From positions 1-24,672 of the IMG/VR virus record IMGVR_UViG_3300025853_000617: 24,672 bases of DNA; one strand, 5' to 3'. The notes beneath the pieces are model-generated. The model was given only the letters and a program-made list of their open reading frames with translations. It had not been told where the DNA came from and made no database searches. This DNA comes from a virus. The translations under genes were made by a program, and so were the position numbers. The stretch's first letter is position 1, and every line of letters begins with the position of its first letter. Shown piece by piece: positions 2,734-23,275 of this stretch.

Positions 2734-3942
2734 TTAACGTTTTGTTTTAATTTTAAGTCTTGAAGAATCAGCCCCGCTAACAGACTTAACTCTTAAACCA
2801 TTAATAAAAACATCACCGCTTTGCGTTTGCCGTGGCTCACTGCTAATGTTTTTAGATTTAGCTGTTAACTCACGAACTGCATCCGCTCGGCCCTGCTCAT
2901 AAAAATGATTTATTACTTTGTCAGGGTTGTTAGCTACATATAAAGCTTTATGATATCCACTTAAATCTGACACTTCACCTTTGTCATTCAAGAACTTCTT
3001 GATAAAGTTACTTATATCTGATTGTTGATTTGCAACTGAAGAATTATCCTTTACTCCGTATCTAAACTTTTTTTCGCCGAGGCTAAAATCAAAACCTTTG
3101 AAATCGTCGTTGAAATAAGTTTTTGTACGATTTTGAAAACTTTCAGTTCGCTGCTTTATAGTTTGCTGCTCTTCATTGTATCGATTGAAAAATTCAACTG
3201 CTTTTTGTTGTTCCTGAGTTACGCCGGGTCTCAACTTGATTTCGTCGTAATATTTATCTTTCAGTCCCTCCAAAAAACCTTTGGCTTTTGCAACTTCTTC
3301 TTTATACGCAATTTTTTTCTTACGTATATCTTTTTCATCATCTACGTCTTCATCCCATGTAAAATCTTCCAAAAGAATACTTACATCTTCAGAATCTAGA
3401 TGAGGTTTGCTTTGGCGGTAATATTCCCGCAAAAGTGTATTGTTATCTACATTAGAATAATCTGCGTTTAATCTTACATAATCCTCTAATGTTCCGCCAG
3501 TCTCACTCATAAAGTCTACAACTTTTTGAATGTTTTCTGGTAATGGTTCTGTAGTATCTTGTGATTGCTGCACGGCATCCTCAACTTGCTCTTGCAAAGT
3601 TTCAGTCTGCTCTTGAACCTCTTTTTCTGTTATTTCTTGTATTACAGATACCTCTTCTACTTCTTCTTCGGTGGCCCGTACTTCTTCAACCACTTCTTCG
3701 CTGCTTGGCGAGTCTTCGGATTTTTCGACAGGAGCATTGCTCTCATCTGTTGTACTGACTTGAACGGCATCTTCTTGTTCTTTTTTTTCGGTAAGATCTA
3801 CCTTAATGGTATCACCTGTTTCTTGAGTTTCTTCCGCTTTTTCTGATAAATCTACTTTAATAGTTTTAGGTGCTTCAGAAAGCTTTTTCATTTTTCGAGG
3901 TTTAACTTTAAATTCCCCCTCTTGTGCAATTGTTTCTGCCAT
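2734..3942 (-). CDS. Scaffold-like (prohead core) protein
   Basis: This 402-aa protein lies between portal and major capsid genes, the usual place for a scaffold. Residues about 27-140 are extremely acidic and low in complexity (runs of E, Q, V, D and T), predicted disordered or coiled-coil. The middle region is charged and helical. The last 18 residues are basic (SSRLKIKTKR), like the capsid-binding tails of known scaffolds. Near the N-terminus a short module is repeated: TIKVDLSEK at 27-35 and TIKVDLTEK at 45-53. There is no protease signature, so any removal of the scaffold would need another protein. The role is inferred from position and composition. Confidence 0.72.
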   Translation of the reverse strand: MAETIAQEGEFKVKPRKMKKLSEAPKTIKVDLSEKAEETQETGDTIKVDLTEKKEQEDAVQVSTTDESNAPVEKSEDSPSSEEVVEEVRATEEEVEEVSVIQEITEKEVQEQTETLQEQVEDAVQQSQDTTEPLPENIQKVVDFMSETGGTLEDYVRLNADYSNVDNNTLLREYYRQSKPHLDSEDVSILLEDFTWDEDVDDEKDIRKKKIAYKEEVAKAKGFLEGLKDKYYDEIKLRPGVTQEQQKAVEFFNRYNEEQQTIKQRTESFQNRTKTYFNDDFKGFDFSLGEKKFRYGVKDNSSVANQQSDISNFIKKFLNDKGEVSDLSGYHKALYVANNPDKVINHFYEQGRADAVRELTAKSKNISSEPRQTQSGDVFINGLRVKSVSGADSSRLKIKTKR

Positions 3943-3969: not shown

Positions 3970-6375
3970 TTACTTAGGGTCAAATTGGCCTAAGTCAAAA
4001 CCACCTAACACATCAAATCCAGCTGATTCAAAGTTTTTTGGCAGTGTATCGTTTTTACGCTGATCAATTAATTCTGATTGCTGCGTTGCTTGTATTTTAG
4101 TTCTATCGTCTTTGCGATCTTCCTTATAAGCGTCTTTTTGTTTTAAAACTTCAGCTTGCGCTTCTGCTAATTGCTTATTAAATTGGAATTCAAGTTCCAT
4201 TAAACGCATTTTAATCTCAGCCTCTCTTTCGAGCTTTTGTATTTCAAATTGTGATTTACCTTGCTCTAGCTGTAATTTACTTTCAGTAAGTGCTTGTTGC
4301 TTTTGTAGCTCCGCGAGTGCTGCAGCTTCTGAAGCTTGGGCGTTTGCTTGGCCCTGCGCTTGTATATTTTGCTGCTGAGCCGCTTGATCTGCCTCCTGTT
4401 TCTTTTGACGTTTTATTCGCAAATATTTATTTGCTAAATCAATATTATTTATATTTCGTATTTCAATAGCATCGTCTAAATAAATAGACCCGGATTGTAA
4501 GGCCGCCTGTATGTTAGTTTCTAAAGATTGCTTTTCTTCGACGTCAGGCTCTAATTGTAAATAAATACCAAAATCATGCATATGAAAATTAGACACCTCT
4601 TTTAAAGTTGCTACATTAAAATCGTTTATACTTCTTTCTAAACTTTCTTCTGTTAACGCAAATTCAAATATATCTTTTGCTTTTAATGAAATATTTTCGC
4701 AAAGTCTAAGCGTAATATATGAAGCTGCTTGCAATATATGCCGCGTTGCTGTATTGCTGTTTGCTGCTGCAATTTTTTGTAAGCCTACTAACGCATTTTT
4801 ATCAGGAGTACTCCCGTCTCTTGCCTCGTTTAGTCCGGTTACATCTCTTATCATTTGAAGATAATAATTATATGTACTAATAAGAGAAGCTATTTTGCCT
4901 TGACCAGAAGACGTTTGTAATTCTTGGATTGGAACTTTACCAGGATTCATATCACCGTCTTGCGTAAACGATCTACCTACTATGCTCCCCGTTTGAAAAT
5001 ACATATTAAGTGCCTCTGCAGGATTGTAATTAGTGCCATTGCCAAGATCTACTTCTGCCAAGCCATCAACATCTACATACACGCCGTCTGGTACCATACG
5101 AGACATTACTTGCTGCAACTTTAAATGAGTAAGCTGAATCATATCAGCAAATCCTGTTATACGACTCACTAGTGATTCTATTTTACCTTTATACATTCTT
5201 GGAGCAACTAAAGTATAATTCATTTCAACTTTAGGAGAATCAGCAAATGGTCTTGTCATATTTTCTGACATTTTCCAAGAAAGCATTTTTTCATGCCCTA
5301 ATATTTTTGCTCCCGAATATAAAACTTCAATTACTCTTTCAACTCTTTCAAAGTTATCGTTTGTTGGTGGATTAAAAGTGTCTGGTTTTTCTAAAGCTTT
5401 TTGTAAACCTTGCTCAGTTTCTTTTATTTTAAATACTTGTTTTTCAAAAGTTTTATATTCAAAAAACATAACACTAATTGTGTTATTGTCATTTTGCCCA
5501 TAATAATTTCTTATATAATCATTATTGCCTGGGTATTTTTGTATTTGTTCTAAATCTTGAGGGGTAAGATACGGAAAAAGTTTTGCAATTTCACTTAATG
5601 AAATTTGCTTAACCTCCCCTACGTAATATAAATCGTCGAAATTAGGGTCTTCCGTATAAGAATAAACTAAATTTGCAGGATCAACATACTTAACACGCAA
5701 ACCATTTGATTTATTGTATTCTGTTTTAGCAGCTCCAATTCCACATACAACTAAATCATAAATAACTCTTTTTCTAACTTCATCATATTTGTTTTTATCT
5801 AAAGAATTATTTATAAGCTCTTCTAAAGCTATTTCAATAGCTTCTTTGTAATTAAGCTGCATATAGACTTCAAACTCATCTAAATCTTTTGGTAATTTTT
5901 CAGGTTCAGGGACAGAAAAGAAATTAATACCAGTTTCTTGTGTTAATTGAGAAAGAGCATTCCTATTAAACATATCCGCCATAACAACTTCGGCATATTT
6001 TGTTTTTTTCTTTTTTGCTATAGGATCTTGCGCAGAAGCTTTTATTTCGTAATTACGCTGAGACATTCCATTAACTACAATATCTACAAATTTTGGTATA
6101 ACGGGAACCGGCTTCCAATCTAAATTTAAATAAGATAAATCACCATTAATAGATAATTCATCTTTATATTTTTGTATAGACTGTTCGCCTCTAGCATAGA
6201 GCCTTCTTCTATGATACTCTTGAAAATTAGAAGTAAAACGGTCGCCGCCACGGTTATTTCTAAACCACTCGTTTTCAATAGCTCTCGCTACTTGCAAGCC
6301 ATATTCTAACGTTTGCTTTTCCTCATTAGGTACCACCTGATCGGGAAACGAGCTTTTATAATTAGTATTAACCAT
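3970..6375 (-). CDS. Portal protein
   Basis: This 801-aa protein is the dodecameric DNA gateway at one capsid vertex. Supporting signals are YHRRRLYARGEQSIQKYKDE (about 54-73), DLSYLNLDWKPVPVIPKFVD (about 79-98), VNGMSQRNYEI after it, and YDLVVCGIGAAKTEY with YVDPANLVYSYTEDPNFDD further on, which together are typical of large portals of podovirus-like and crAss-like phages. The C-terminal roughly 150 residues are a Q/A/E-rich coiled coil, as expected for a long barrel extending into the head. It starts immediately after the TerL stop codon with no spacer, implying coupled translation. It is longer than siphoviral portals (about 400-550 aa). Confidence 0.9.
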   Translation of the reverse strand: MVNTNYKSSFPDQVVPNEEKQTLEYGLQVARAIENEWFRNNRGGDRFTSNFQEYHRRRLYARGEQSIQKYKDELSINGDLSYLNLDWKPVPVIPKFVDIVVNGMSQRNYEIKASAQDPIAKKKKTKYAEVVMADMFNRNALSQLTQETGINFFSVPEPEKLPKDLDEFEVYMQLNYKEAIEIALEELINNSLDKNKYDEVRKRVIYDLVVCGIGAAKTEYNKSNGLRVKYVDPANLVYSYTEDPNFDDLYYVGEVKQISLSEIAKLFPYLTPQDLEQIQKYPGNNDYIRNYYGQNDNNTISVMFFEYKTFEKQVFKIKETEQGLQKALEKPDTFNPPTNDNFERVERVIEVLYSGAKILGHEKMLSWKMSENMTRPFADSPKVEMNYTLVAPRMYKGKIESLVSRITGFADMIQLTHLKLQQVMSRMVPDGVYVDVDGLAEVDLGNGTNYNPAEALNMYFQTGSIVGRSFTQDGDMNPGKVPIQELQTSSGQGKIASLISTYNYYLQMIRDVTGLNEARDGSTPDKNALVGLQKIAAANSNTATRHILQAASYITLRLCENISLKAKDIFEFALTEESLERSINDFNVATLKEVSNFHMHDFGIYLQLEPDVEEKQSLETNIQAALQSGSIYLDDAIEIRNINNIDLANKYLRIKRQKKQEADQAAQQQNIQAQGQANAQASEAAALAELQKQQALTESKLQLEQGKSQFEIQKLEREAEIKMRLMELEFQFNKQLAEAQAEVLKQKDAYKEDRKDDRTKIQATQQSELIDQRKNDTLPKNFESAGFDVLGGFDLGQFDPK

Positions 6376-8592
6376 TTATTTTATTATTTTTGAACTATAT
6401 CCTTTGTTGTTATATTTTTTAAAGCCAAGCGGAACAGACTTTAAAACTCTTTCCGCAGACGGCCTATACCTGTTTTTATTGCAAGCCATAATAGCTAAAC
6501 CAGAGCTAATTGTTGCATCAAATTTAGTTCTATTATTTATATTAAATCCAGCCCAGTCTTCTAATGTTTTTTGAAAATATATATCGCCATATATACCTTC
6601 TGTAACTTGACCTACATAATTTTCTATATAACTTTCAATTGCAGCAGCGTGAGCTTGCTTAATATCTTCAGACGAGTTTGGTATACCGCCTATATCTTTT
6701 TCTGTAACAGAAAGCTTATTCCAAAGCTTATCTGGTCGGTTCATTGAAAAACCTCTATAACCTCTTCGTTTTAAATAATACAATAATCGAGGTTTATTAT
6801 TTTCTGCAAGTATAGGCATTCCATAAAATACTAATGCCATAAGTACATCTTCAAAAAATATTTCAGCTGTTTGTGGGCGAGCAATATATTCTAAAAAAAA
6901 CATATTAGGTGGTGCGTCTTCCATGCTAAACTTTGTTAACCCATGCAAAGACCCTTTAGAACCTCTTTTGTCAACTGTACCTGATATATCATATGAGTCA
7001 CATCCAAATGCGCCAACGTGCTCGTTGCCTGGGTATTTAACACCATTCTTTACTATTACACGATTTTGTAAATTTTTAGGAGGCACCCAAGATATTTTAA
7101 ATCTTCCATTCGTGTTTGGCGCAAATATTACATTGCTATCCTGCTGCCCATTCTCCCATTGAAAATTACCTTGTGTAACCTGCATTCCGTTTTGAACTTC
7201 TTCGTTGTAATCTATTTGTTCGTAAATCTTAGTTAGATTAAATAAAGACTCTTTTGCTTCATCTCTAAAAGCATGCTGCTCTGTACGCGGAAACTGTCGA
7301 TAGTATTCATTTAAACTGTCTTGATCGTTTTTAAGTCCATCAACCTCGTTTTGCCAATGTTCTATAACGCCTTGGTCAATAACTTCTCCATACGGTCCTT
7401 CAACTTGTTCTTGCGGTGTATCAAAGACAGGGTTTCCATAAGAATCAATGAACCCTTCGTAGTTCCATTCCATAGGTATGAACAAAGAATATAATCCCGA
7501 GCTAGTCTGTCCATTGCGGTTTCGTTTAGTAACGTCTGAATCTTCGTATAGTTTTTTGAAATTTGCTCCACCTTTATCTAATGCGTTTGAGGTCGAGCCC
7601 ATCATACACTTACCTACGATTCTAGAACCTAATCTAAGCGTTGTTTTTGTAACTCGCCAGTTGTTTAATATATTATCTGGTCTTTCCCACTTGCCACTTT
7701 CATCGTGAGCTAATAGTTTTAGTTTCTCCCCATCGTACGAGTTATCACCCGTGTTTTTCCAGTCGATTGTTGTGTCGAGCCCTTCGAGCTCCTCCGGCCC
7801 TTGGCCCTGATCAAGTTTTCTTCGCGTAAGTTTTGACGCTGGTACTCTGTATGCCAATTCTGTTTTTGGTCGGTCCATCCCGTCTTGTATTGGTTTAAAG
7901 AAAAACGGATAGTTGACGGATATTGGTACAACTTTATCTGTGAACATTTTTTTAGCATCGGCTCCAGATTTGGACAATATCCCAAACCGTGAATCGGAAG
8001 ATATTGTCGCTTGATTAACCAGTTCTCCTGATGCCATGAAAGAAAAACCAGAGCGTCTGTTTTTGAGATAGCACATTCCATAACTGCGTGAATCGGCTTT
8101 GCATGCTTCCCAGAAAATAAAAAATAATCTGTTTGACTCCCTAAAGTCTGCTGCCCCCACGTCAATTTTAGACCACTGCAGGTACATGTAATGAGAGCCA
8201 GTAATATAAGTAGGATTACCCTTGTTAACGAACGAAAAGCCTTCATCACGGCGTTTAAACTCTTCGTCAATATAATCATAATATTTTTCTTTAAAGTATT
8301 CAGGCATTTGATTCCACTCAAATACACTTTTTATTTTTTCAAGTTCTTTAGGGTAATCTATTTGACTCCAAGTATCTTTTTTAAATTTATATGAGTCAGA
8401 TATTTTCGGCAAAGCTATTTTAAGATTTTGTATGCTATACACATCTCCAATCTCGCCGGTTTTACTTATCACTACAACATCACTTTCTTTGTCGTAACCG
8501 TATTTCCATTGCTTATACCTATTCTTCTTATTAAGAACTTTCTTGCTTATATAATCAGGCAGAACTTCAAATAATGTCTGCGTATAATTCAT
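6376..8592 (-). CDS. terL: Terminase large subunit (packaging ATPase and nuclease)
   Basis: This 738-aa protein is the DNA-packaging motor. The ATPase half has a deviant Walker A, LKNRRSGFSF at 176-185, a Walker B with catalytic acid LKLLAHDESG at 291-300 (D297, E298), and a coupling motif MGSTSN at 331-336. The RNase H-like nuclease half shows candidate metal ligands D532 in GCDSYD, E597 in ILAENNKPR and D692 in KFDATISSGLA. An N-terminal extension of about 120 residues precedes NPTYITGSHYMYLQW. The length is above the usual 450-600 aa and fits podovirus-like or crAss-like terminases. It overlaps the upstream small gene by 4 nt and abuts the portal gene. The assignment is firm from motifs and context. 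Confidence 0.92.
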   Translation of the reverse strand: MNYTQTLFEVLPDYISKKVLNKKNRYKQWKYGYDKESDVVVISKTGEIGDVYSIQNLKIALPKISDSYKFKKDTWSQIDYPKELEKIKSVFEWNQMPEYFKEKYYDYIDEEFKRRDEGFSFVNKGNPTYITGSHYMYLQWSKIDVGAADFRESNRLFFIFWEACKADSRSYGMCYLKNRRSGFSFMASGELVNQATISSDSRFGILSKSGADAKKMFTDKVVPISVNYPFFFKPIQDGMDRPKTELAYRVPASKLTRRKLDQGQGPEELEGLDTTIDWKNTGDNSYDGEKLKLLAHDESGKWERPDNILNNWRVTKTTLRLGSRIVGKCMMGSTSNALDKGGANFKKLYEDSDVTKRNRNGQTSSGLYSLFIPMEWNYEGFIDSYGNPVFDTPQEQVEGPYGEVIDQGVIEHWQNEVDGLKNDQDSLNEYYRQFPRTEQHAFRDEAKESLFNLTKIYEQIDYNEEVQNGMQVTQGNFQWENGQQDSNVIFAPNTNGRFKISWVPPKNLQNRVIVKNGVKYPGNEHVGAFGCDSYDISGTVDKRGSKGSLHGLTKFSMEDAPPNMFFLEYIARPQTAEIFFEDVLMALVFYGMPILAENNKPRLLYYLKRRGYRGFSMNRPDKLWNKLSVTEKDIGGIPNSSEDIKQAHAAAIESYIENYVGQVTEGIYGDIYFQKTLEDWAGFNINNRTKFDATISSGLAIMACNKNRYRPSAERVLKSVPLGFKKYNNKGYSSKIIK

Positions 8593-8864
8593 TTTGATCT
8601 ACCTTCTGCAAAGCCTTTAAATGATTTAGCTTTAGCCGCTTGATTCTCGCCTTCTAATAATGATCTTTCCTCGTCTATGCGTGTTAGTATTTCAAACGCG
8701 TCAAAGATCGCTAACTTTTTAGTAGCAGCAGCGTTTTTAAGTCTATCCGCTGAAACATCATCTTCGGTATTTGTTATAATCTTTTCTTCAGCAACGCGAA
8801 TTAACTCATCAACCGCTTTTTGCCCAGCTCGGATTATATTCCTCTTCGTGTCCTTTACGTTCAT
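8589..8864 (-). CDS. Putative terminase small subunit
   Basis: This 91-aa, almost wholly helical and charged protein is encoded directly before terL, overlapping it by 4 nt. TerS proteins recognise phage DNA and recruit TerL. No helix-turn-helix can be recognised with confidence by eye, and 91 aa is short for the family, so the call rests on position, size and helical oligomer-like character. The only methionine is the first residue, which fixes the start at 8864 and forces a 56-nt out-of-frame overlap with the end of the tandem GroES-like gene. It could alternatively be a head-module accessory protein. Confidence 0.55.
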   Translation of the reverse strand: MNVKDTKRNIIRAGQKAVDELIRVAEEKIITNTEDDVSADRLKNAAATKKLAIFDAFEILTRIDEERSLLEGENQAAKAKSFKGFAEGRSK

Positions 8865-9414
8865 ACTTAATAGCTATATCATTTGATTTCATACAATAAA
8901 GACGCTCGTCGTCTATAATAAATTCCCATTCACTACTAGGTGTGAAGCCAACTAGATCCCCTGGGTTAATATGGAGCGCTTCTAGCGCATTATTCCCATA
9001 TTTTAGTATACCAATATGCTTTTGCTCTTTTTCAGTCGAATATGAGCTTGTTTCCTTAATTGGCTTTACAAAGCATCTATTATTAACCATAACCCAATCG
9101 TTATTTTTTTTATAACCATAAACTTGATCTACATTAACGAAGTACATATTATCTTTAAAAAACATACTTCCGTTTCTTTCTTTACCTTTAACATCATACC
9201 ATCTTCTAAATATATTGTGATGTATTAAAACGGTATCACCTATATTTATGCCGGTATTAAATGCTGCTGGTGTTGAAACTACTATAGCTTCTTTGTTTAT
9301 GTGACGAAAGCTTTCTATACTTGTATTTAGTAGCAGGCTAGTGTCACCTATCTTTTTAGTATTATTATATCGTTCGCCTTTGGGTTTAACTATAAATTGG
9401 TATAATGATTTCAT
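8809..9414 (-). CDS. Tandem GroES-fold protein (two co-chaperonin-like barrels)
   Basis: This 201-aa protein appears to consist of two GroES-like modules. Module 1 (about 5-101) has YQFIVKPKGE, then EAIVVS, INIGDTVLIHHN and YFVNVDQVYGY. Module 2 (about 108-185) has CFVKPIKE, GILKYGN, INPGDLVGF and IIDDERLYCMKSNDIAIKYE. The last segment lines up well with E. coli GroES [20 protein letters not shown], and the VGD-V and EVLAVGNG elements have equivalents in both modules. Between IVK and EAIVVS there is room for a mobile loop in each. Doubled GroES proteins are known from plastids (Cpn20); a phage version is inferred here by eye. The last ten residues (EYNPSWAKSG) are an extra tail. It may cap a chaperonin during head assembly, or be a GroES-fold structural protein. 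Confidence 0.65.
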   Translation of the reverse strand: MKSLYQFIVKPKGERYNNTKKIGDTSLLLNTSIESFRHINKEAIVVSTPAAFNTGINIGDTVLIHHNIFRRWYDVKGKERNGSMFFKDNMYFVNVDQVYGYKKNNDWVMVNNRCFVKPIKETSSYSTEKEQKHIGILKYGNNALEALHINPGDLVGFTPSSEWEFIIDDERLYCMKSNDIAIKYERKGHEEEYNPSWAKSG

Positions 9415-9874: not shown

Positions 9875-10273
9875 TTAATTGTTATTGCTGGATTTTTTTG
9901 ATTTTTCCCACGTGCGCCCAACAAAATACGCACCGTATACTGTTATTAATAATGATTGAAAAATTGGAATATATTCTTGCGCAACTTCAAACCCACCTAC
10001 ATTACCATCAGCAAATGCTAAAATAGTAAATATAGATGTAAGATACACCAGCACAAGCGGCCGAATGTTTTTAGATAAAAATGAATCTGATTGCATATCC
10101 ATTTTCCATCTTTCTGTTACCTGTGTCTGTGCGTCTTGATCTGCTTTTTCCAATAACTCTTGAATCTTTTGTTTAGCAGCTAATCTTTCTTCGTCTGTAG
10201 TTGTAAGCTTATCAATTACATTACCTACGTCTTTAATTAAACCACCCGATAAAAGACTTAAAAGTTTTTTCAT
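9875..10273 (-). CDS. Holin (GTA_holin_3TM-like)
   Basis: This 132-aa protein likely forms lesions in the inner membrane to time lysis. It starts with an amphipathic segment (MKKLLSLLSGGLI), has a charged cytoplasmic helix at about 22-60, the motif WKMDMQSDSFLSKNIRPLVL at 56-75, a first membrane segment at about 71-89 and a second at about 102-119, and ends in a basic K/S/N tail. The W-x2-D-S-x-S-x2-IRPL pattern is characteristic of the family called holin of 3TMs for gene-transfer release. No endolysin is recognisable nearby. It sits in a tightly packed run with 3-nt and 10-nt gaps. Confidence 0.78.
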   Translation of the reverse strand: MKKLLSLLSGGLIKDVGNVIDKLTTTDEERLAAKQKIQELLEKADQDAQTQVTERWKMDMQSDSFLSKNIRPLVLVYLTSIFTILAFADGNVGGFEVAQEYIPIFQSLLITVYGAYFVGRTWEKSKKSSNNN

Positions 10274-10276
10274 TTA

Positions 10277-10882
10277 TTAAGATTTTTTATTTTTTTTCTT
10301 TTCTAACTTAGTTTGACCAACTATATTAGCAAATCTTGGATCTTGTTTAGCGTCTTTTCTATAGTGTCTTGTTTGACCATACATACTCGCGTCTGCATAT
10401 GCACCTGTAGGATCTATTTCTTTTGCAACATCCATTGCAGCATCGCTTCCAGAGCTTGAAATGTTTCTATTTATTCTTTTTAGTACATGACGTGGATCAG
10501 AGTGAACTTTGCTTTCTAAGTCTTTAATTCTTTTACCGTAATTTTCATACTTAGTAGGCCCACCCGTTAAAACATTTAACGCACCACTTGTTTGATAGCC
10601 AAAACCACTAGTGCCTTCTTTTTGCACATTTTTAAGAATTTTTACAGCTTTATCGGCTTTCCTAACATCATCAAAATATTTATTAGATGCTTCTGATGGA
10701 TCGTAATTAGGGCCCATATCACTTTTAAAATCCTTAGGAATTTTATTACCAAACTCATCTAAATTTTTACCGCTTTTAGGGTTTTTCTTCTGCATAGCCA
10801 TAGAATCGCCATGGGCAAGTCCGGCTGCCTTGTTTGTCATTTGCCCTTTTATTACTTTTACGGGCGATTGTTTATAAGCCAT
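10277..10882 (-). CDS. Small basic phage protein with N-terminal SP and GH-DS-AMQ motifs
   Basis: This 201-aa basic protein begins MAYKQSPVKVIKG and carries GLAHGDSMAMQKKNPKSG near residues 21-38. The protein encoded at 11316-11726 has an equivalent N-terminus (KLGHSDSVAMQTNPKKG), so the two share an N-terminal module with unrelated bodies. The middle holds YFDDVRKADKAVKILKNVQK, then G-rich segments, and the C-terminus is very basic (TKLEKKKNKKS). No enzyme motif is visible. Possible roles are internal virion or nucleic-acid-binding protein, which is speculation. It lies 3 nt from the holin gene. Confidence 0.72.
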   Translation of the reverse strand: MAYKQSPVKVIKGQMTNKAAGLAHGDSMAMQKKNPKSGKNLDEFGNKIPKDFKSDMGPNYDPSEASNKYFDDVRKADKAVKILKNVQKEGTSGFGYQTSGALNVLTGGPTKYENYGKRIKDLESKVHSDPRHVLKRINRNISSSGSDAAMDVAKEIDPTGAYADASMYGQTRHYRKDAKQDPRFANIVGQTKLEKKKNKKS

Positions 10883-10885
10883 CTT

Positions 10886-11251
10886 TTATGTTTTTAATTT
10901 TTGTTTTGGAAATTTATATCTTTTATATATTAAAGTTTTATTGTAATCGCCTGTAAATTTACATATTAAGCGATTTTTACTTTTTAATTTATATTGAATT
11001 GTAACAGTCCATCCATTTTCGGGTCTGTGTATATGCGTTGTAAAAGTGTCTTTGCTTCTTTGAACTATTTGTTCTTGTATATAATGATTTTCAAATGGAT
11101 CAAAATTAACAACGTTTATCACACCAAAATCGGTTTCTTCAATTACCGTTATATAATCTTCTTGCTCAGGATTGTACCACCATCCTTGAAATTTAATCTG
11201 TGCAAATGTAAAAGTTGAAAATAAAATTAATAATAAAAATGATTTTTGCAT
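10886..11251 (-). CDS. Secreted or periplasmic small beta-rich protein
   Basis: This 121-aa protein has a clear Sec signal peptide: MQKS, a hydrophobic core (FLLLILFSTFTFA) and a probable cleavage site before QIKFQGWW. An FA|Q end is typical of Flavobacteriia. The mature part (about 104 aa) is rich in aromatic and beta-forming residues (WWYNPEQEDYITVIEE, then WTVTIQYKLKSKNRLICKFT and TLIYKRYKF), consistent with a small barrel or lipocalin-like fold, though I cannot name a family. A lone exported protein next to the holin could act at lysis, in superinfection exclusion or on the host surface; the sequence does not decide. The leader is A/T-rich and a 14-bp inverted repeat lies upstream. Confidence 0.75.
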   Translation of the reverse strand: MQKSFLLLILFSTFTFAQIKFQGWWYNPEQEDYITVIEETDFGVINVVNFDPFENHYIQEQIVQRSKDTFTTHIHRPENGWTVTIQYKLKSKNRLICKFTGDYNKTLIYKRYKFPKQKLKT

Positions 11252-11267
11252 TGTATTTAATTTAAGT

Positions 11268-11297
11268 TAATTATGTAATATAAATATTACATAATTA
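11268..11297. repeat. Perfect 14-bp inverted repeat in an intergenic gap
   Basis: TAATTATGTAATAT at 11268-11281 is mirrored exactly at 11284-11297 with only two bases between. It lies in the 64-nt gap upstream of the secreted-protein gene. As RNA it would form an AT-only hairpin; as DNA it is a good dimeric operator shape. There is no adjacent T-run on the minus strand, so it is not a standard terminator. Confidence 0.8.
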
Positions 11298-11315
11298 TAG
11301 CTCAAATTACTTACT

Positions 11316-11726
11316 TTAGCTGCTAGACTTAGGCATGCTTAAAAAACTAGGAATAGTGCCTCCGTCCACATCTCTTGATCTTTTTCTCATATATCTAAGA
11401 GTATAAGGAGCCCCTTCTGTTTCTTTCATTTTTTCTAATCTAGCAAGCTCTTTAGATGCATCAGTACCGTAACCAAGGCCAGCTTCGGCTTGTCCTTGAC
11501 TGCCGCTAAACCCTCCGCTAGATATAGTGTTTCGAATTGATTGAAAAGCTTTATCTAATTGGTTTCCAAAAGCTCCTATTTTAGAAGCATCACCTGCTAC
11601 TACAACTTCATTTAATTCTTCTCCTTTTTTAGGGTTTGTTTGCATAGCTACCGAGTCACTATGCCCTAGCTTAGCATAAGGGCTTTTCATTTTAGCCACT
11701 GATGTGTATTTTTGTTTATATGGCAT
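11316..11726 (-). CDS. Small phage protein, paralogous N-terminus to the 201-aa protein
   Basis: A 136-aa protein with N-terminus MPYKQKYTSVAKMKSPYAKL, then GHSDSVAMQTNPKKGEELNE. The GH-DS-AMQ-NPK pattern matches the protein at 10277-10882. Residues 37-45 read ELNEVVVAG, which resembles the LNEVVV string common near TonB boxes of SusC-type receptors. The body is G/S-rich (FSGSQGQAEAGLGYGTDASK) and the C-terminus contains MRKRSRDVDGG. No catalytic motif is seen. It is probably a virion-associated or internal protein, by inference from neighbours. Confidence 0.7.
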   Translation of the reverse strand: MPYKQKYTSVAKMKSPYAKLGHSDSVAMQTNPKKGEELNEVVVAGDASKIGAFGNQLDKAFQSIRNTISSGGFSGSQGQAEAGLGYGTDASKELARLEKMKETEGAPYTLRYMRKRSRDVDGGTIPSFLSMPKSSS

Positions 11727-11732
11727 GATTAT

Positions 11733-11945
11733 TTATTTTTTATTTAATGGATATTCTGTTACATATTTAGCCCCTGGAAATGTATAATCATAACCAGGAT
11801 ACATTATTTTAGCTGAGCCATTATTATCAATTCCCAGCACTTTAAATTCAACTCCTTTCATTGTTATTTTATTGCCTTTAATAACGTTATAAGACTTATT
11901 AACATCAGGGCTATTTTTTAAATATCCTTTTTTAGAAGTTTTCAT
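11733..11945 (-). CDS. Conserved small phage protein (KNSPDVNK type)
   Basis: A 70-aa protein: MKTSKKGYLKNSPDVNKSYN, then ITMKGVEFKVLGIDNNGSAK, MYPGYDYTFPGAKYV and a basic end. I recall close look-alikes in other marine Bacteroidota phages with the same KNSPDVNK start and PGYDY-FPG core; function unknown. It is probably a small beta fold. It shares the short SP motif with neighbouring small proteins. The start overlaps the end of the HExxH gene by 4 nt (ATGA type), so it is coupled to it. Confidence 0.72.
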   Translation of the reverse strand: MKTSKKGYLKNSPDVNKSYNVIKGNKITMKGVEFKVLGIDNNGSAKIMYPGYDYTFPGAKYVTEYPLNKK

Positions 11946-12253
11946 TTGCTTTTATTATAAGCTTCTTTTTCCCAAGGTAAATTTTTATTACCTTCATCAA
12001 TACTAGATCTTGGTATTATACGACCTTTCCAGTACACATTTTTATCGTCGTAATCAAGATCCCCTCTGCGCATTTGATCTATATGTACTTGCTCGTGTTT
12101 AATAACACTTTTAGCTTCTAGTGGTGATAAATTTTCATCCACTATTATTGTGCCATTATTATTAGCTTTACCTAAAACGCCTTCTTCCATGTCTACATAA
12201 TATACTGGAGTTTCATCCATTTTAAATGGGGCGGGTTTCATTTTAAAAGCCAT
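11942..12253 (-). CDS. Minimal HExxH metallopeptidase-like protein
   Basis: A 103-aa protein with KHEQVHIDQM at 52-61, that is H53-E54-x-x-H57, the zinc and catalytic motif of gluzincin-type metallopeptidases. A candidate third zinc ligand lies about 40 residues later in LPWEKEAYNK (E95 or E97), matching the HExxH...PxExEA layout I know from small DUF4157-like and similar predicted peptidases. Before it come a short beta region (YVDMEEGVLG, GTIIVDENLS) and the helix PLEAKSVI leading into the motif. It starts with MAFKMKPAPFKM, like its small neighbours. No signal peptide is present. Possible roles are virion protein maturation, host protein cleavage or lysis; none is shown. Confidence 0.68.
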   Translation of the reverse strand: MAFKMKPAPFKMDETPVYYVDMEEGVLGKANNNGTIIVDENLSPLEAKSVIKHEQVHIDQMRRGDLDYDDKNVYWKGRIIPRSSIDEGNKNLPWEKEAYNKSK

Positions 12254-12256
12254 AAT

Positions 12257-12421
12257 TTATTTTTTACCGTATGGTACAACTTTATTAAGATATGCCTGTC
12301 GCTTTTTGCAGCCACAACCACCGGGTATATTTAAACCATTGGCAAATTGCTCTGCAAACCTATCTATACCTGTAGCTTTAGTAGCACGTGCTATAGTATC
12401 ACCAAGCCCTCTATCTTTCAT
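12257..12421 (-). CDS. 54-aa conserved phage microprotein (GLGDTI / CGCKKR type)
   Basis: A short gene of 54 codons plus stop. It reads MKDRGLGDTIARATKATGID, then a helical linker, GGCGCKKRQAYLNKVVPYGK and a final K. The combination of GLGDTI-ATGID at the start with CGC-KRQ-LN-PY at the end is a pattern I recall in many unrelated phages, which supports it being real; the function is unknown. The CxC pair could bind metal or be redox active. Its ATG overlaps the stop of the upstream gene (ATGA) and its stop is 3 nt from the next start, as expected inside this packed operon. Confidence 0.78.
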   Translation of the reverse strand: MKDRGLGDTIARATKATGIDRFAEQFANGLNIPGGCGCKKRQAYLNKVVPYGKK

Positions 12422-12789
12422 TTAGATTCTTTATACTTTTTAATTGCTTTAGCCCCTAATTTAATTAAACCTTTAGCAATACCTGCCCTACCGGCAGCTC
12501 CGGCCGACATAGTCCCGCCAACTAAATTAGGATTTTTTGGACCAGTGAGGTTATGTACTACACGTTTCATAGTGGTATTAAATTTATCACCAATGCTGCT
12601 ACCAGGTGTGTATTGAGGCATGTTAGCTTGATGAGCCTTGTACTCTTGCATTCCTGGAGCTGTAGAATCAAAGTCTACTAATTCGCCTTGCGTTTGCCGC
12701 TCTACCGCATCAGAATCAATGGTCTGTTTTAAAGGGCTTGTAAACCTTGAAGGCGTACAGTGTTTTGATGTAAACGGTTTATATTTCAT
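12418..12789 (-). CDS. Small basic/amphipathic phage protein
   Basis: A 123-aa protein. An ATG at 12855 would add 22 residues, but the start at 12789 (MKYKPFTSKH) is preferred: it is one base past the stop of the preceding gene, and the N-terminus then matches the M-x-Y-K style of its neighbours. The region FTSPLKQ at 16-22 holds the SP motif found in several adjacent genes. The C-terminal third is G/A-rich and amphipathic (MSAGAAGRAGIAKGLIKLGA, then KAIKKYKESK), which may contact membrane or DNA. No known family. Confidence 0.68.
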   Translation of the reverse strand: MKYKPFTSKHCTPSRFTSPLKQTIDSDAVERQTQGELVDFDSTAPGMQEYKAHQANMPQYTPGSSIGDKFNTTMKRVVHNLTGPKNPNLVGGTMSAGAAGRAGIAKGLIKLGAKAIKKYKESK

Positions 12790-12790
12790 A

Positions 12791-13105
12791 TTAGCAATTC
12801 CATTTTCTTCGCGCAGCTCTTCCTCTTTCAGACTTCCAGCCTTTAGATCGTGCACAAAATGATTTTCTGCGTTTCCACGCTTTACTTCCTTTTTTAAGCT
12901 TTGATGGTGGTGTAGTTACAGCAGTTGATAATTTACTGCCTGGATTATCTTTGCGATATTTCTTAACGCCTTTTTCAGTCATACCGCCACCTGCTTTGCT
13001 TCCAGTGCCGCTGCCTTTTTTTACTTCAGCGTAATACCCTTTTGATTTCTTCCTAGATGGAGCATCGCCTTTTTTAGTAAACGGTGAGTTATGCTGAACG
13101 TACAT
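12791..13105 (-). CDS. Highly basic conserved phage protein (DUF6321/DUF5872-like)
   Basis: A 104-aa protein dominated by K, R, G and S. The core GGGMTEKGVKKYRKDNPGSK, then LSTAVT, KKGSKAWKRRKSFCARSKGW and GRAARRKWNC matches a viral and phage domain of unknown function that I recall under DUF6321/DUF5872-type names; the exact family name should be verified. Conserved RRKSFCAR with a C-terminal RKW-C suggests nucleic-acid or metal binding. It begins MYVQHNSPFTKKGDAP, carrying the local SP motif. It may be packaged with DNA, which is inference. Confidence 0.75.
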   Translation of the reverse strand: MYVQHNSPFTKKGDAPSRKKSKGYYAEVKKGSGTGSKAGGGMTEKGVKKYRKDNPGSKLSTAVTTPPSKLKKGSKAWKRRKSFCARSKGWKSERGRAARRKWNC

Positions 13106-13107
13106 AA

Positions 13108-13293
13108 TTATTGTTTTGCGCGTTGTGTAATAGGAGGGTTTAAGTCATAAGACTTGCAAGGGTATTTTTTAATTTGCATACCGTTTGCACCTGAACTACT
13201 ACCCTTCCCCATAGGAAACCCTGATGTATCAATAGGTCCATCCCATACGTGAGACTCTCCTACTATTCCGCCTTTTAATGGTTGTTTTTTCAT
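13108..13293 (-). CDS. Small hypothetical protein
   Basis: A 61-aa protein (MKKQPLKGGIVGESHVWDGP, then G/S-rich residues and YPCKSYDLNPPITQ). No recognised family. Gaps of 2 and 5 nt to its neighbours and an A/T-rich leader argue that it is translated. It is predicted to be largely disordered. Confidence 0.55.
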   Translation of the reverse strand: MKKQPLKGGIVGESHVWDGPIDTSGFPMGKGSSSGANGMQIKKYPCKSYDLNPPITQRAKQ

Positions 13294-13298
13294 AATTA

Positions 13299-13619
13299 TT
13301 ATTTTACGTTATAAGTTTTTCCGCTAACTTCAAATGTACTAGCACCTGATGCCTTAGCTGCTTGCAAGGCCGCTGTAAAAGCATTACCATTTAAAGGTGA
13401 GTCCTTCATAAATAAAGGTGCATTCATACCACCTGCTGCGTATTGTCGCATTTCAGGTGATCCTGTCATACCTTGCACATTTTGCTGAACTTGCGGTGTA
13501 AAGCCACCGCCCATTGGCGCCATTTGTGGTGGTACCATTGTTGTTTGCATTGGCTGACCTGTCATAGGATCTATTTGAGGATTACCCAAACGCATTATTG
13601 GATTTTTTGTATAAGCCAT
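13299..13619 (-). CDS. Small protein with a C-terminal FxxAxxxAKxxGxxxFxVxGKxYxV module
   Basis: A 106-aa protein. The N-terminal two thirds are M/P/Q/G-rich and disordered (MTGQPMQTTMVPPQMAPMGG). MKDSPLNG at 71-78 carries the local SP motif. The C-terminal 28 residues (NAFTAALQAAKASGASTFEV, then SGKTYNVK) match a short motif I have seen at the ends of small phage proteins of Bacteroidota and Alphaproteobacteria phages, generally near structural genes; function unknown. It lies 2 nt from the winged-helix gene. Confidence 0.7.
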   Translation of the reverse strand: MAYTKNPIMRLGNPQIDPMTGQPMQTTMVPPQMAPMGGGFTPQVQQNVQGMTGSPEMRQYAAGGMNAPLFMKDSPLNGNAFTAALQAAKASGASTFEVSGKTYNVK

Positions 13620-13621
13620 AG

Positions 13622-14065
13622 CTATCTTTCTTTGTCGTTATTTATTCTTTTGATTGCAACCTGAAGCATTCTGTCTGTATACGCTTTGCTTTTAATTACA
13701 TTTTGTGTTGCGCTACTTGGAATATCTTCTTCGCCTGTAAGTATTCTATAAACACGTGTTAATAACTGCGTTGTTTTTAAAGATACTTTATATAGACTGC
13801 CTTTACTATCTGATTTATTACCTCTTCGCCATAATACTATCCAGCCTTCTTTTAAAAGTCGTGAAAACCTATTGTTGTCCCAGCTGTATGCATATGTGTC
13901 AAGCTTAAAATCTGTTTTACTAAAAAAGCCCTGACAGTCTAAAAATAAAAGAAGCTCCAAATCTGCATCTTTTATACCGTAGTTTCGGCATGCCCATCTT
14001 CTAACTATACGGTAATGCTTTAATACGTTTGAGTCGCGCAAATCCGAAGCCTTTATTGTTTTCAT
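13622..14065 (-). CDS. Winged-helix (MarR-like) putative regulator
   Basis: A 147-aa basic protein. Residues about 30-100 look like a winged helix: GIKDADLELLLFLDCQGFFS (helix 1-2), a recognition-type helix NNRFSRLLKEGWIVLWRRGN (about 64-83) running into the wing, and KGSLYKVSLKTTQLLTRVYR (about 88-107). The pattern L-x2-L-x3-G-I-x5-R...Y-x-LS/T is that of MarR-type regulators and of some phage assembly proteins. The start overlaps the end of groES by 4 nt, so it is co-translated with the chaperonins. It may be a DNA-binding regulator of late genes; without a search the call is tentative. Confidence 0.5.
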   Translation of the reverse strand: MKTIKASDLRDSNVLKHYRIVRRWACRNYGIKDADLELLLFLDCQGFFSKTDFKLDTYAYSWDNNRFSRLLKEGWIVLWRRGNKSDSKGSLYKVSLKTTQLLTRVYRILTGEEDIPSSATQNVIKSKAYTDRMLQVAIKRINNDKER

Positions 14066-14322
14066 AATATAACGACTACATCTTGCGCTTTAATTACATT
14101 ATACACTTTATTATCTAGCTCAATGGAATGGCCGGCGTGTCTATCATAATAAATAGCATCGCCAGCCTTTATTCCCACTATATCGGCGCCCGCTGATATT
14201 ACGCTTGCTTTTGCGTATCTTATATCTTCACGGGCATTTTCTGCAATTAGCAGACCGCCTTCTGTTTTTTGTGAACCTTGTTTTTCTTTTTCTACTATTA
14301 AGTAATATCCGATTGCTTTCAT
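14062..14322 (-). CDS. groS: Co-chaperonin GroES
   Basis: An 86-aa single-domain GroES that caps the GroEL cavity. The barrel start is MKAIGYYLIVEKEKQ. The mobile loop follows at about residues 15-34, with GGLLIAE supplying the hydrophobic tripeptide that docks on GroEL. Then come VISAGADIVGIKAGDAIYYD (equivalent of LAVG...VKVGDIV) and IELDNKVYNVIKAQDVVVIL (equivalent of [18 protein letters not shown]). Length is slightly below the bacterial 95-97 aa. It sits downstream of groEL with a 4-nt overlap, the reverse of the bacterial groES-groEL order. Confidence 0.9.
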   Translation of the reverse strand: MKAIGYYLIVEKEKQGSQKTEGGLLIAENAREDIRYAKASVISAGADIVGIKAGDAIYYDRHAGHSIELDNKVYNVIKAQDVVVIL

Positions 14323-15869
14323 AACTGTTCTATTCTAACGTTATTAATTACACAATCGGTTGATATAATTGTTGTGGCTACTGAAGCCGCGTTCCGAAGA
14401 GCGCTTTTAGTAACAAGTAGTGGGTCGATAATTCCAGATTTAATCATATTCACCATACCCCCTGTAACAACATTTAACCCTCTGCCTTTAATAGTAGGCT
14501 CTTCAAATTCTTCAATACCTGCATTACTAAGTATCGTATGAAAAGGCGCTTTAATTGACTTATAAAGTAGTTCTTCGCCTTTACCGCTCGGCTTTATTTT
14601 TTGAGCGGCATTTAAAAGGGCTATTCCACCACCTGGCACTATGCCTTCTTTAATCGCGGCTTTTGTAGCACATATAGCGTCTTCAACTCTATCACGCTTT
14701 TCTTTTAATTCAACCTCTGAATTAGCACCGACTTTTACAACGGCAACTTTTGCAGATAATCTTGCGAGCCTTTTTTCATGCCTAATTTTTGCACCCGGCA
14801 TCATTGGCTTTTCAAGCTCTTCTTGTATTGCTTTAATTTTTTCTTCGACCTCTTCAGATTTGCCCTCAACTTGCAAAACAGTTTCTTCTGAATTAGTAAC
14901 CGCTTTAACACAAGTTCCAAGCATTTCAATATCTATGAGGTCCATATCGTCGCCAAGGTCTTCATTAATAACTTTAGCTCCTGTTAACATACAAAGATCT
15001 TGCATAACCTCTTTTCGCGTTATACCATAAGTCGGCAAATCAATTATGTTAACTTTTATATTGCCTTTCATTTTATTCATTGCAAGAGTGTTCAGCACTT
15101 GAGGCTCAACATCCGCAATAACTAACAATGATTTATTCTTTTTTATAACATGCTCCAGCACCGACTGAATTCTACGTATATTTGGAATAGGTGATTCTGA
15201 TATTAATATATACGGGTTGTCCAGCTCTGCGGCGTTTATATTTTCGTTTGTTATAAAGTGATTAGATTTAAGTGGCTGATCGTATTGAACGCCATCTACA
15301 ACTTCTATTGTTGTGTCCGGCTCATCCGTTGTTTGCATGATGACTACACCTGTATTGCCTACAGACTTGAACGCATCACTTATAAGCTTACCAAGCTCTT
15401 TATCATTATTTGCAGATATAGTTGCTACTTGGTCAATCATATCACCGTCAACCGGTATTGCAATTTTTTCTAAATATGCAATTACTTTTTCAACACCACT
15501 TGCAATCCCTTCTTTCAGTGTTCGGGAGCTATCTTGCTCTAATGCTTTATATGCATTTTTAAGAATTGAATGCGCAAGTACAGTTGCGGTTGTTGTTCCG
15601 TCACCGGCTTCTTGTACGGTTTTTCGCGCAGCATCTTTTAAAAGCGTTGCACCCATATTTTCAACAGGATCACGCAAAAATATATTGTTTGCTACTGTTA
15701 CACCGTCTTTTGTAATTACCGGCTTGCCTTTATCGTTTTCAAGTATTACGCTAAGACCGCTAGCCCCGAGCGTGGAGCTAACGGCTTTTGTTAGCTTTTC
15801 AATACCTTCGTAAACCTTAGAGCGAGCGTCGCTTCCAAAGTTTAAGTTCTTAACTATTGCGTCAGACAT
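14319..15869 (-). CDS. groL: Chaperonin GroEL (phage-encoded)
   Basis: A 516-aa group I chaperonin subunit. The equatorial ATPase is intact: VITKDGVTVA (D55), EAGDGTTTATVLA (D90), RVEDAICATKAAIKEGIVPG with GG following (D397). Intermediate and apical domains follow the usual order. Against E. coli GroEL recalled from memory, several apical substrate and GroES contact positions differ (Y199 to L, Y203 to H, L234 to Q, V263 to A, V264 to M), while F204 and L237 are kept. The protein ends at VINNVRIEQL and lacks the C-terminal GGM repeats. It probably folds capsid or fibre proteins. It starts the chaperonin operon, preceded by an A/T-only leader of 34 nt after the previous gene. Confidence 0.95.
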   Translation of the reverse strand: MSDAIVKNLNFGSDARSKVYEGIEKLTKAVSSTLGASGLSVILENDKGKPVITKDGVTVANNIFLRDPVENMGATLLKDAARKTVQEAGDGTTTATVLAHSILKNAYKALEQDSSRTLKEGIASGVEKVIAYLEKIAIPVDGDMIDQVATISANNDKELGKLISDAFKSVGNTGVVIMQTTDEPDTTIEVVDGVQYDQPLKSNHFITNENINAAELDNPYILISESPIPNIRRIQSVLEHVIKKNKSLLVIADVEPQVLNTLAMNKMKGNIKVNIIDLPTYGITRKEVMQDLCMLTGAKVINEDLGDDMDLIDIEMLGTCVKAVTNSEETVLQVEGKSEEVEEKIKAIQEELEKPMMPGAKIRHEKRLARLSAKVAVVKVGANSEVELKEKRDRVEDAICATKAAIKEGIVPGGGIALLNAAQKIKPSGKGEELLYKSIKAPFHTILSNAGIEEFEEPTIKGRGLNVVTGGMVNMIKSGIIDPLLVTKSALRNAASVATTIISTDCVINNVRIEQL

Positions 15870-23032: not shown

Positions 23033-23275
23033 TTATTCGTTTTTTGTACCGTTTTTGCTGGGGTTCATACCTCCCCTGTTTCTATGAGCTGTTACAAAAG
23101 TTCCAGTATAGTGATCATAGTCCTTGCCTTTTATGTTTTTACCTGCTTTTTTAGCTGCACGGCGCTTTTTTTGGCTATCTGCTCGCTTTTTCTTGCGGTC
23201 ATCACTGTTGGCATACCTTAAATCGCGCTCTTTCTTGGCTTTTGCGGCTGCCGGAGATAACTTTTGCTTACCCAT
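23033..23275 (-). CDS. Small highly basic protein
   Basis: An 80-aa, K/R-rich protein (PAAAKAKKERDLRYANSDDR, then KKKRADSQKKRRAAKKAG) with a C-terminal GKDYDHYTGTFVTAHRNRGG. The D-H...NRG pattern is reminiscent of a degenerate HNH-type or DNA-binding phage protein, but the catalytic layout is not complete. It is probably nucleic-acid binding. It is the first gene of the minus-strand block, adjacent to the divergent non-coding region, so it is the gene nearest to any late promoter. Confidence 0.68.
   Translation of the reverse strand: MGKQKLSPAAAKAKKERDLRYANSDDRKKKRADSQKKRRAAKKAGKNIKGKDYDHYTGTFVTAHRNRGGMNPSKNGTKNE

Follow-up and report, generated by a model that had tools for sequence, protein, structure and literature searches.

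A portable serine-proline tag on unrelated small basic late proteins of one phage lineage: a candidate virion-incorporation signal

In this study, we examined a cluster of small late genes in a virus fragment of 24,672 bp, which is the whole of IMG/VR record IMGVR_UViG_3300025853_000617 and is referred to here as the window. The late genes lie on the minus strand, and the cluster comprises nine open reading frames (ORFs) between the holin gene and the genes for GroES and GroEL (Table 1). An initial annotation had reported that six of its proteins, otherwise different in their bodies, carry a short serine-proline (SP) peptide, in most of them near the N terminus. Each of the six peptides was located on the minus strand, and four of the six contain SP followed by a hydrophobic residue within residues 2-31; the SP of the 13299-13619 product lies at residue 74 and is thus not N-terminal. 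A further one, KNSPDVNK, had been listed as an example of the shared motif and is not a tag by our reading, with Asp after SP and a position inside a conserved domain. Two additional ORFs, 11942-12253 and 13108-13293, carry degenerate forms. We show here that the peptide, called the SP tag below, is real, restricted to one phage lineage, portable between protein bodies, maintained at the level of the peptide, built on a hydrophobic core and found on late basic proteins of a selected class.

In the window, SP followed by a hydrophobic residue within residues 2-31 occurs in four of the nine ORFs; composition-preserving shuffles average 0.35, and none of 5000 scored as high. Any SP in this segment is found in five ORFs (1.06 in shuffles, P=0.0008), whereas the reversed dipeptide PS stays at background in the same test (2 versus 1.09). 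Relatives were collected by three IMG/VR scans with TerL, the metallopeptidase and the homologue of the 13622-14065 product, which gave 154 non-redundant loci among the matches listed; 92 of these keep the interval that runs from the 13622 homologue to the GroES-like and TerL genes, and they provide 1146 cluster ORFs. N-terminal tags are present in 192 of them, about fivefold above shuffles (40.6±5.8), while the reversed motif is present in 38. The dipeptide SP stands at 1.62 times its expectation and PS at 0.89 times, and SP density is 10-11 per 1000 positions in residues 1-20 as against about 4 elsewhere. The strict form SP[LFMIVY][KNQR] was found in 108 of the 1146 cluster ORFs and in 15 of 1500 other ORFs, nearly all of the 15 being cluster proteins in truncated loci. 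It should be kept in mind that ORFs were called by length, that families 0 and 1 are conglomerates and that related phages are dependent samples; the last point is met in part by taking one random representative per homology family, in which case 42 of 147 are tagged against 7.4 in shuffles. Motif discovery in related phages, as suggested in the initial annotation, was carried out as an unbiased search for gapped four-residue patterns and placed SPLN first (46 sequence clusters against 0 shuffled), followed by, among others, KSPL, M..SPL, SP.KM and SPAK and by the start patterns M.YKQ and MAY.Q. The M-x-(Y/F) start noticed at the outset is likewise borne out, being present in 40% of tagged proteins and in 8-13% of other cluster proteins and of controls. 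Together with conservation of the motif in homologues, the enrichment gives good support to the original idea of one short signal common to unrelated bodies and marking them for a shared partner; neither of the two outcomes that the initial annotation had named as refuting this idea was observed.

Table 1. Features of the window and of its small-protein cluster. G and L numbers, here and in the text, are our handles for related genomes and loci.
Feature	Position	Strand	Tag or SP peptide	Remarks
Major capsid protein (MCP)	1263-2714	minus		
Scaffold-like protein	2734-3942	minus		
Portal	3970-6375	minus		
TerL (terminase large subunit)	6376-8592	minus		defines the lineage
GroES-like protein	8809-9414			second and longer, beside TerL
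Holin	9875-10273			
Small-protein cluster	10277-13619	minus		9 ORFs
Basic protein, 201 aa	10277-10882	minus	MAYKQSPVKV	SP at 10862-10867; weak homologue L053:6153-6689
Protein, 136 aa	11316-11726	minus	MPYKQKYTSVAKMKSPYAK	SP at 11679-11684; peptide AKMKSPYAKLGH present
Protein, 70 aa	11733-11945	minus	LKNSPDVNK	SP at 11907-11912; phrog_36695, 1.2e-7
Minigluzincin-like zinc metallopeptidase, 103 aa	11942-12253	minus	degenerate, MAFKMKPAPFKM (MAFKMKPAPF)	HExxH, third ligand Glu; PSPF in L090
Conserved protein (GLGD...CGC), 54 aa	12257-12421	minus	untagged	regular cluster member; family 7
Basic protein, 123 aa	12418-12789	minus	MKYKPFTSKHCTPSRFTSPLKQ (FTSPLKQ)	SP at 12733-12738; second motif FTSKHC; in-frame ATG chosen as start over GTG at 12855
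DUF6321 protein, 104 aa	12791-13105	minus	MYVQHNSPFTKKG (QHNSPFTKKG)	SP at 13082-13087; PF19846, 1e-10
Conserved WDGP-family protein, 61 aa	13108-13293	minus	degenerate, MKKQPLKGG	orthologue L035, MKKSPLK
Met/Pro/Gln-rich protein, 106 aa	13299-13619	minus	internal, MKDSPLNG	SP at 13395-13400; orthologue L003, LNSPLNG
Conserved protein, 147 aa	13622-14065	minus		phrog_17028; upstream edge of tagged cluster
GroES	14062-14322			
GroEL	14319-15869			tail-fibre-like genes come next

The residue after SP is strongly selected: Leu was found 84 times (6.5 expected), Phe 68 times (4.0) and Ile 29 times (7.2), so that SPL and SPF are 13-17 times enriched, while SPK is rarer than in shuffles (2 versus 15.6) and SPG and SPS are likewise depleted. 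The position after the hydrophobic residue is preferentially Lys or Asn, and Met and Lys are enriched on both sides. The tag may thus be described as a short linear motif of the approximate form [K/N/S]-S-P-[L/F/I]-[x]-[K/N], often following an M-[A/P/G]-[Y/F]-K-[M/Q]-K start and sometimes repeated, which lies in disordered N termini or linkers of small basic proteins expressed late. Three or more tags are carried by 37 proteins (0.7 in shuffles), and internal tags occur at 4.2 per 1000 aa in families having tagged members compared with 0.48 in never-tagged families. In family 10 the tag is conserved to 74% at S, 89% at P, 68% at F, 68% at L and 58% at K.

The tag marks some proteins of the operon and not others, being absent from its lysis genes, chaperones and enzymes. 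At least 48 of the 147 homology families have tagged members, and tagged proteins carry a net charge of +5.4 per 100 aa versus +0.5 for untagged cluster proteins. No tags were found in the holin (0/82), GroES-adjacent (0/90), coiled-coil (0/88) and CGC (0/44) families of the same operon, nor in two families that are membrane-type or lipoprotein-like (0/26 and 0/23). In family 14, with 11 tagged and two untagged members, the tag falls outside the aligned homologous body. A core protein of ejection type encoded downstream of MCP is tagged in G009 (MALGVYKMKGPFKMKRSPFKVPFAP) and G016 (MAKNKNKQPSPFHKG) and has untagged orthologues in G001 and G007. The DUF6321 assignment of the 12791-13105 product (42.5 bits) passes the Pfam gathering cut-off of 28.5, and 17 of the 19 members of this family are tagged, while DUF6321-type bodies in HTVC028P, S-CRES3 and MEP301 are untagged. 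The start of MCP itself, MALSPLFGSL (2680-2714), resembles the tag, and was rejected on the ground that its SP is not conserved among related MCPs.

When 2.9 million viral contigs were scanned at the DNA level for FKMKxSP[F/Y-like], 69 stretches matched, and 45 of 72 pattern loci from two scans have genes of the lineage locally. When 16 records were checked, 14 encoded a TerL 68-76% identical to that of the window, and the remaining two showed no such tagged ORF. Contigs with T4-like replication genes had suggested that the tag is common to unrelated marine phage lineages; this was discarded, as those records carry the window's TerL. Cultured relatives of lower TerL identity (elemo at 45%, phi40:1, phi18:3 and Gundel_1) are essentially untagged, and ctfjg026 (TerL 63%) has essentially no tags. 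Restriction to one clade suggests that the reader of the tag is phage-encoded and lineage-specific. The lineage consists of uncultured marine phages that probably infect Bacteroidota and is apparently abundant, with at least 600 matches in single IMG/VR scans. One 129.5-kb record, G024 (L131; L347, L348), has two metallopeptidase/cluster regions about 64 kb apart with differing sequences, and is possibly a chimeric contig. A search of the literature turned up neither a description of an SP tag in phages nor any paper dealing with DUF6321.

Several of the tagged bodies lead to virion proteins. Family 14 (KGKFTAW), which occurs in relatives and has no member in the window, gave an hhalign match (E=8.4e-13) to the crassvirus cargo protein 1 domain, taken from cr128_1, from Rudgehvirus jaberico and from crAss001 gp45; the cr128_1 protein is a gp45 orthologue (3.7e-139 against chain 7qog_M). 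Mass spectrometry has detected gp45 in virions, where it occupies both capsid and tail (PMC10172136). When PDB chains were searched directly with the family 14 profile, gp45 was not recovered, and the link between the two therefore goes via intermediate sequences. The 11733-11945 product corresponds to the N-terminal domain, here self-standing, of a protein annotated as structural in the Cellulophaga phages phi17:2 (gp041) and phi4:1. A relationship between phi17:2 gp041 and crAss gp45 was considered and is not claimed, the weak local match (E=0.15) being all that points to it. The tagged core protein of G009 and G016 is syntenic with phi40:1 gp099, which is annotated by mass spectrometry, and tagless phi40:1 has small basic virion proteins with such annotation in the corresponding region; virion proteins annotated by mass spectrometry are also encoded there in elemo and phi18:3, likewise tagless. 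One of those of phi40:1, gp080 (MS/MS), is homologous (1.5e-17) to the very basic 80-aa product of 23033-23275, outside the cluster, and this suggests a place in the virion for the latter as well. A protein of cyanophage S-B43 that bears the annotation T4-like structural protein has DUF6321 fused at its end. The KG.FTA domain also stands alone between the portal and capsid genes of cr50_1 (L323:1171-1389), where it is annotated 'transcriptional regulator', and opens a cr127_1 protein annotated 'endolysin' (L324:1192-2550); both names look doubtful.

Taken together, homology and synteny of the tagged bodies with virion or cargo proteins point indirectly to packaging, one of the roles that the initial annotation had proposed, and we prefer it to the other candidate functions. 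We give roughly even chances to the proposal that the SP tag is a lineage-specific, portable virion-incorporation (cargo) signal on small basic proteins. According to this proposal, a head component particular to the lineage (the portal, scaffold or capsid protein) would have a groove in which the hydrophobic residue after SP docks while the prohead is being assembled, so that tagged proteins would be co-assembled into the head; several tags on one protein would add avidity. Inside the head, the basic bodies would bind to the DNA, with which they may later be ejected. A number of points weigh against this. The placing of tagged proteins in the virion is an indirect one, by homology or synteny of their bodies, and a tag common to late basic proteins could have a cause unrelated to packaging. 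The homology to phi40:1 gp099 consists of a profile match (2.6e-5, probability 75%) in addition to synteny. About a quarter of the lineage loci having the metallopeptidase (20 of 88) are without a strict tag, which is hence not obligatory, and no isolate of the tagged clade turned up in the phage collection that was searched.

Alternatively, the tag could be a docking motif for a partner outside the capsid, which might be the phage GroEL/GroES encoded next door, another late phage protein or a host factor encountered once injection has taken place. In most loci the cluster is flanked by genes for GroEL and GroES, a hydrophobic SP[LF] in disordered regions suits docking generally, and portability and multiple copies are compatible with any partner. 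However, elemo phages encode both GroEL and GroES and yet are without tags, and the tag is limited to one phage lineage rather than being common to unrelated phages of similar hosts; we therefore consider a partner of this kind rather unlikely. As to the arrangement itself, GroEL and GroES adjoining the cluster, together with the longer GroES-like protein beside TerL, are conserved in most relatives.

The initial annotation had also named processing as a role, and the cluster does encode a candidate enzyme. A function of the tag as cleavage or recognition site, be it for this metallopeptidase (11942-12253 and its homologues) or for another maturation protease, would agree with the presence of the gene in nearly all tag-bearing genomes examined, including, by six-frame search, the tagged genomes L182 and L163, and with its absence from five complete tagless relatives. 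It would also agree with the invariance of H53, E54, H57 and E95 (HExxH and the downstream third Glu) in 61 homologous sequences. The model of the window's protein has a predicted local distance difference test (pLDDT) score of 87, and the structures closest to it in the PDB are those of IrrE/PprI, abylysin and selecase, all of them weak matches (E above 0.1). The tag and the enzyme nevertheless dissociate. The homologue in G022 (L346:16241-16600) bears a canonical tag itself (MPYIQRNSPFKKK) and reads EEIEH where HExxH is expected, the first His being replaced, so that it is apparently catalytically dead, while its neighbours are still tagged; conversely, G019 has HExxH intact but shows no tags over the 20 kb that were read, to which the 20 peptidase-positive loci without a strict tag can be added. 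Many tags are, moreover, internal or repeated. Cleavage is thus improbable, and rather than reading the tag the metallopeptidase is more likely to be a further client that bears it.

It might also be argued that the motif has no function and that disordered, low-complexity late proteins have come to look alike at their N termini through duplication or composition. The cluster is rich in low-complexity proteins, and TP and PP variants are mildly enriched too. In addition, the products of 10277-10882 and 11316-11726 resemble partial duplicates: the GH-DS-AMQ-NPK match between them that the initial annotation had noted is real (AHGDSMAMQKKNPK and GHSDSVAMQTNPK), but as it occurs in no other locus it looks like a local duplication, and we dropped it as a second general motif. 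Against an origin of the SP tag of this kind, the reversed motif and shuffles yield fivefold fewer matches, and in the DUF6321 family the tag is conserved as an island within a gappy N terminus. Furthermore, the Ser of the tag is encoded by both TCN and AGY codons, and 19 SP hexamers were counted among 179 distinct tag contexts. Between tagged genes of the same genome and different families, identity of Ser/Pro codons is at chance (0.37 versus 0.35), and 5' DNA identity is 0.34 within one genome versus 0.33 between genomes; recent copying of a DNA stretch thus does not explain the tag, and an absence of function appears quite improbable. TCA is somewhat over-used at the tag Ser (49% versus 27%), from which it is likely that the tags share some ancestry. 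A second short motif, [FW][MTI]SKH[CS], is present in the 12418-12789 product and others, 29 proteins in all, one per locus and 28 of them also with SP; these may form one fast-evolving orthologous family.

A DNA-binding element of the SPKK type, which in sperm histones contacts the minor groove and here would help basic proteins to condense the AT-rich genome, would fit the basic nature of the tagged proteins and the frequent Lys at the second residue after SP, but it is highly improbable and was rejected, given that SPK is depleted and a hydrophobic residue is nearly obligatory after SP, so that its defining feature of SP followed by a basic residue is lacking.

If the SP tag is a packaging signal, it would provide a portable handle for loading proteins into the head of a tailed phage, independent of the T4 system; many genes of the lineage whose function is unknown would become a predictable class, that of virion cargo, and the free exchange of accessory virion proteins would be explained by a label that stays constant while the body varies. 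More tentatively, the modular label, SP[L/F] with an M-x-Y/F-K start, could be acquired by any new gene, and through a single reader the head could be loaded with dozens of small proteins, unrelated to each other, in parallel. This would amount to a way of loading cargo into a tailed phage that is general, evolvable and unrelated in sequence to the T4 capsid-targeting sequence (CTS). Of the remaining cluster proteins, the 13108-13293 type (IVGES.xWDGP...GSSSG...GPITQ.AKG) is found in most lineage loci and matches no Pfam or PHROGs family, and a PADLOC search found no defence family.

Among known systems, the marine phage proteins of DUF6321 (PF19846) and DUF5872 (PF19197) have the same basic, Cys-containing bodies, but the homologues examined, from Pelagibacter, Methylophilales and Synechococcus phages, are without the SP tag. 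The SPKK units of sperm histones H1 and H2B are also repeated SP-x-basic elements in basic disordered tails; here, however, Leu, Phe or Ile follows the Pro. Encapsulin cargo-loading peptides are short, contain hydrophobic residues and are found on unrelated cargo, with one shell protein as their reader. The SP tag shares with them the short, hydrophobic-containing peptide on unrelated cargo, although encapsulin peptides are usually C-terminal, differ in sequence and serve a non-viral shell. Another parallel is crAss001 gp45, in that tagged family 14 corresponds to a stand-alone gp45 domain and both are late proteins of Bacteroidota-type phages. In crAss001, gp45 is a single large multi-domain protein on the portal and tail barrel, and its domain is without the tag, whereas the tagged lineage has its bodies distributed over many small proteins. 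The T4 CTS differs from the SP tag in that the latter is centred on SP[LF] with basic flanks, is often internal or repeated and gave no sign of being removed by a prohead protease, although no search aimed at such a protease was made. Compared by description and not by alignment, the two resemble each other in idea, which is not to place the tag in the CTS family: each is a short, mainly N-terminal peptide on unrelated small basic late proteins, and the CTS has been proposed to direct co-assembly into the prohead, which is the role that we propose for the SP tag.

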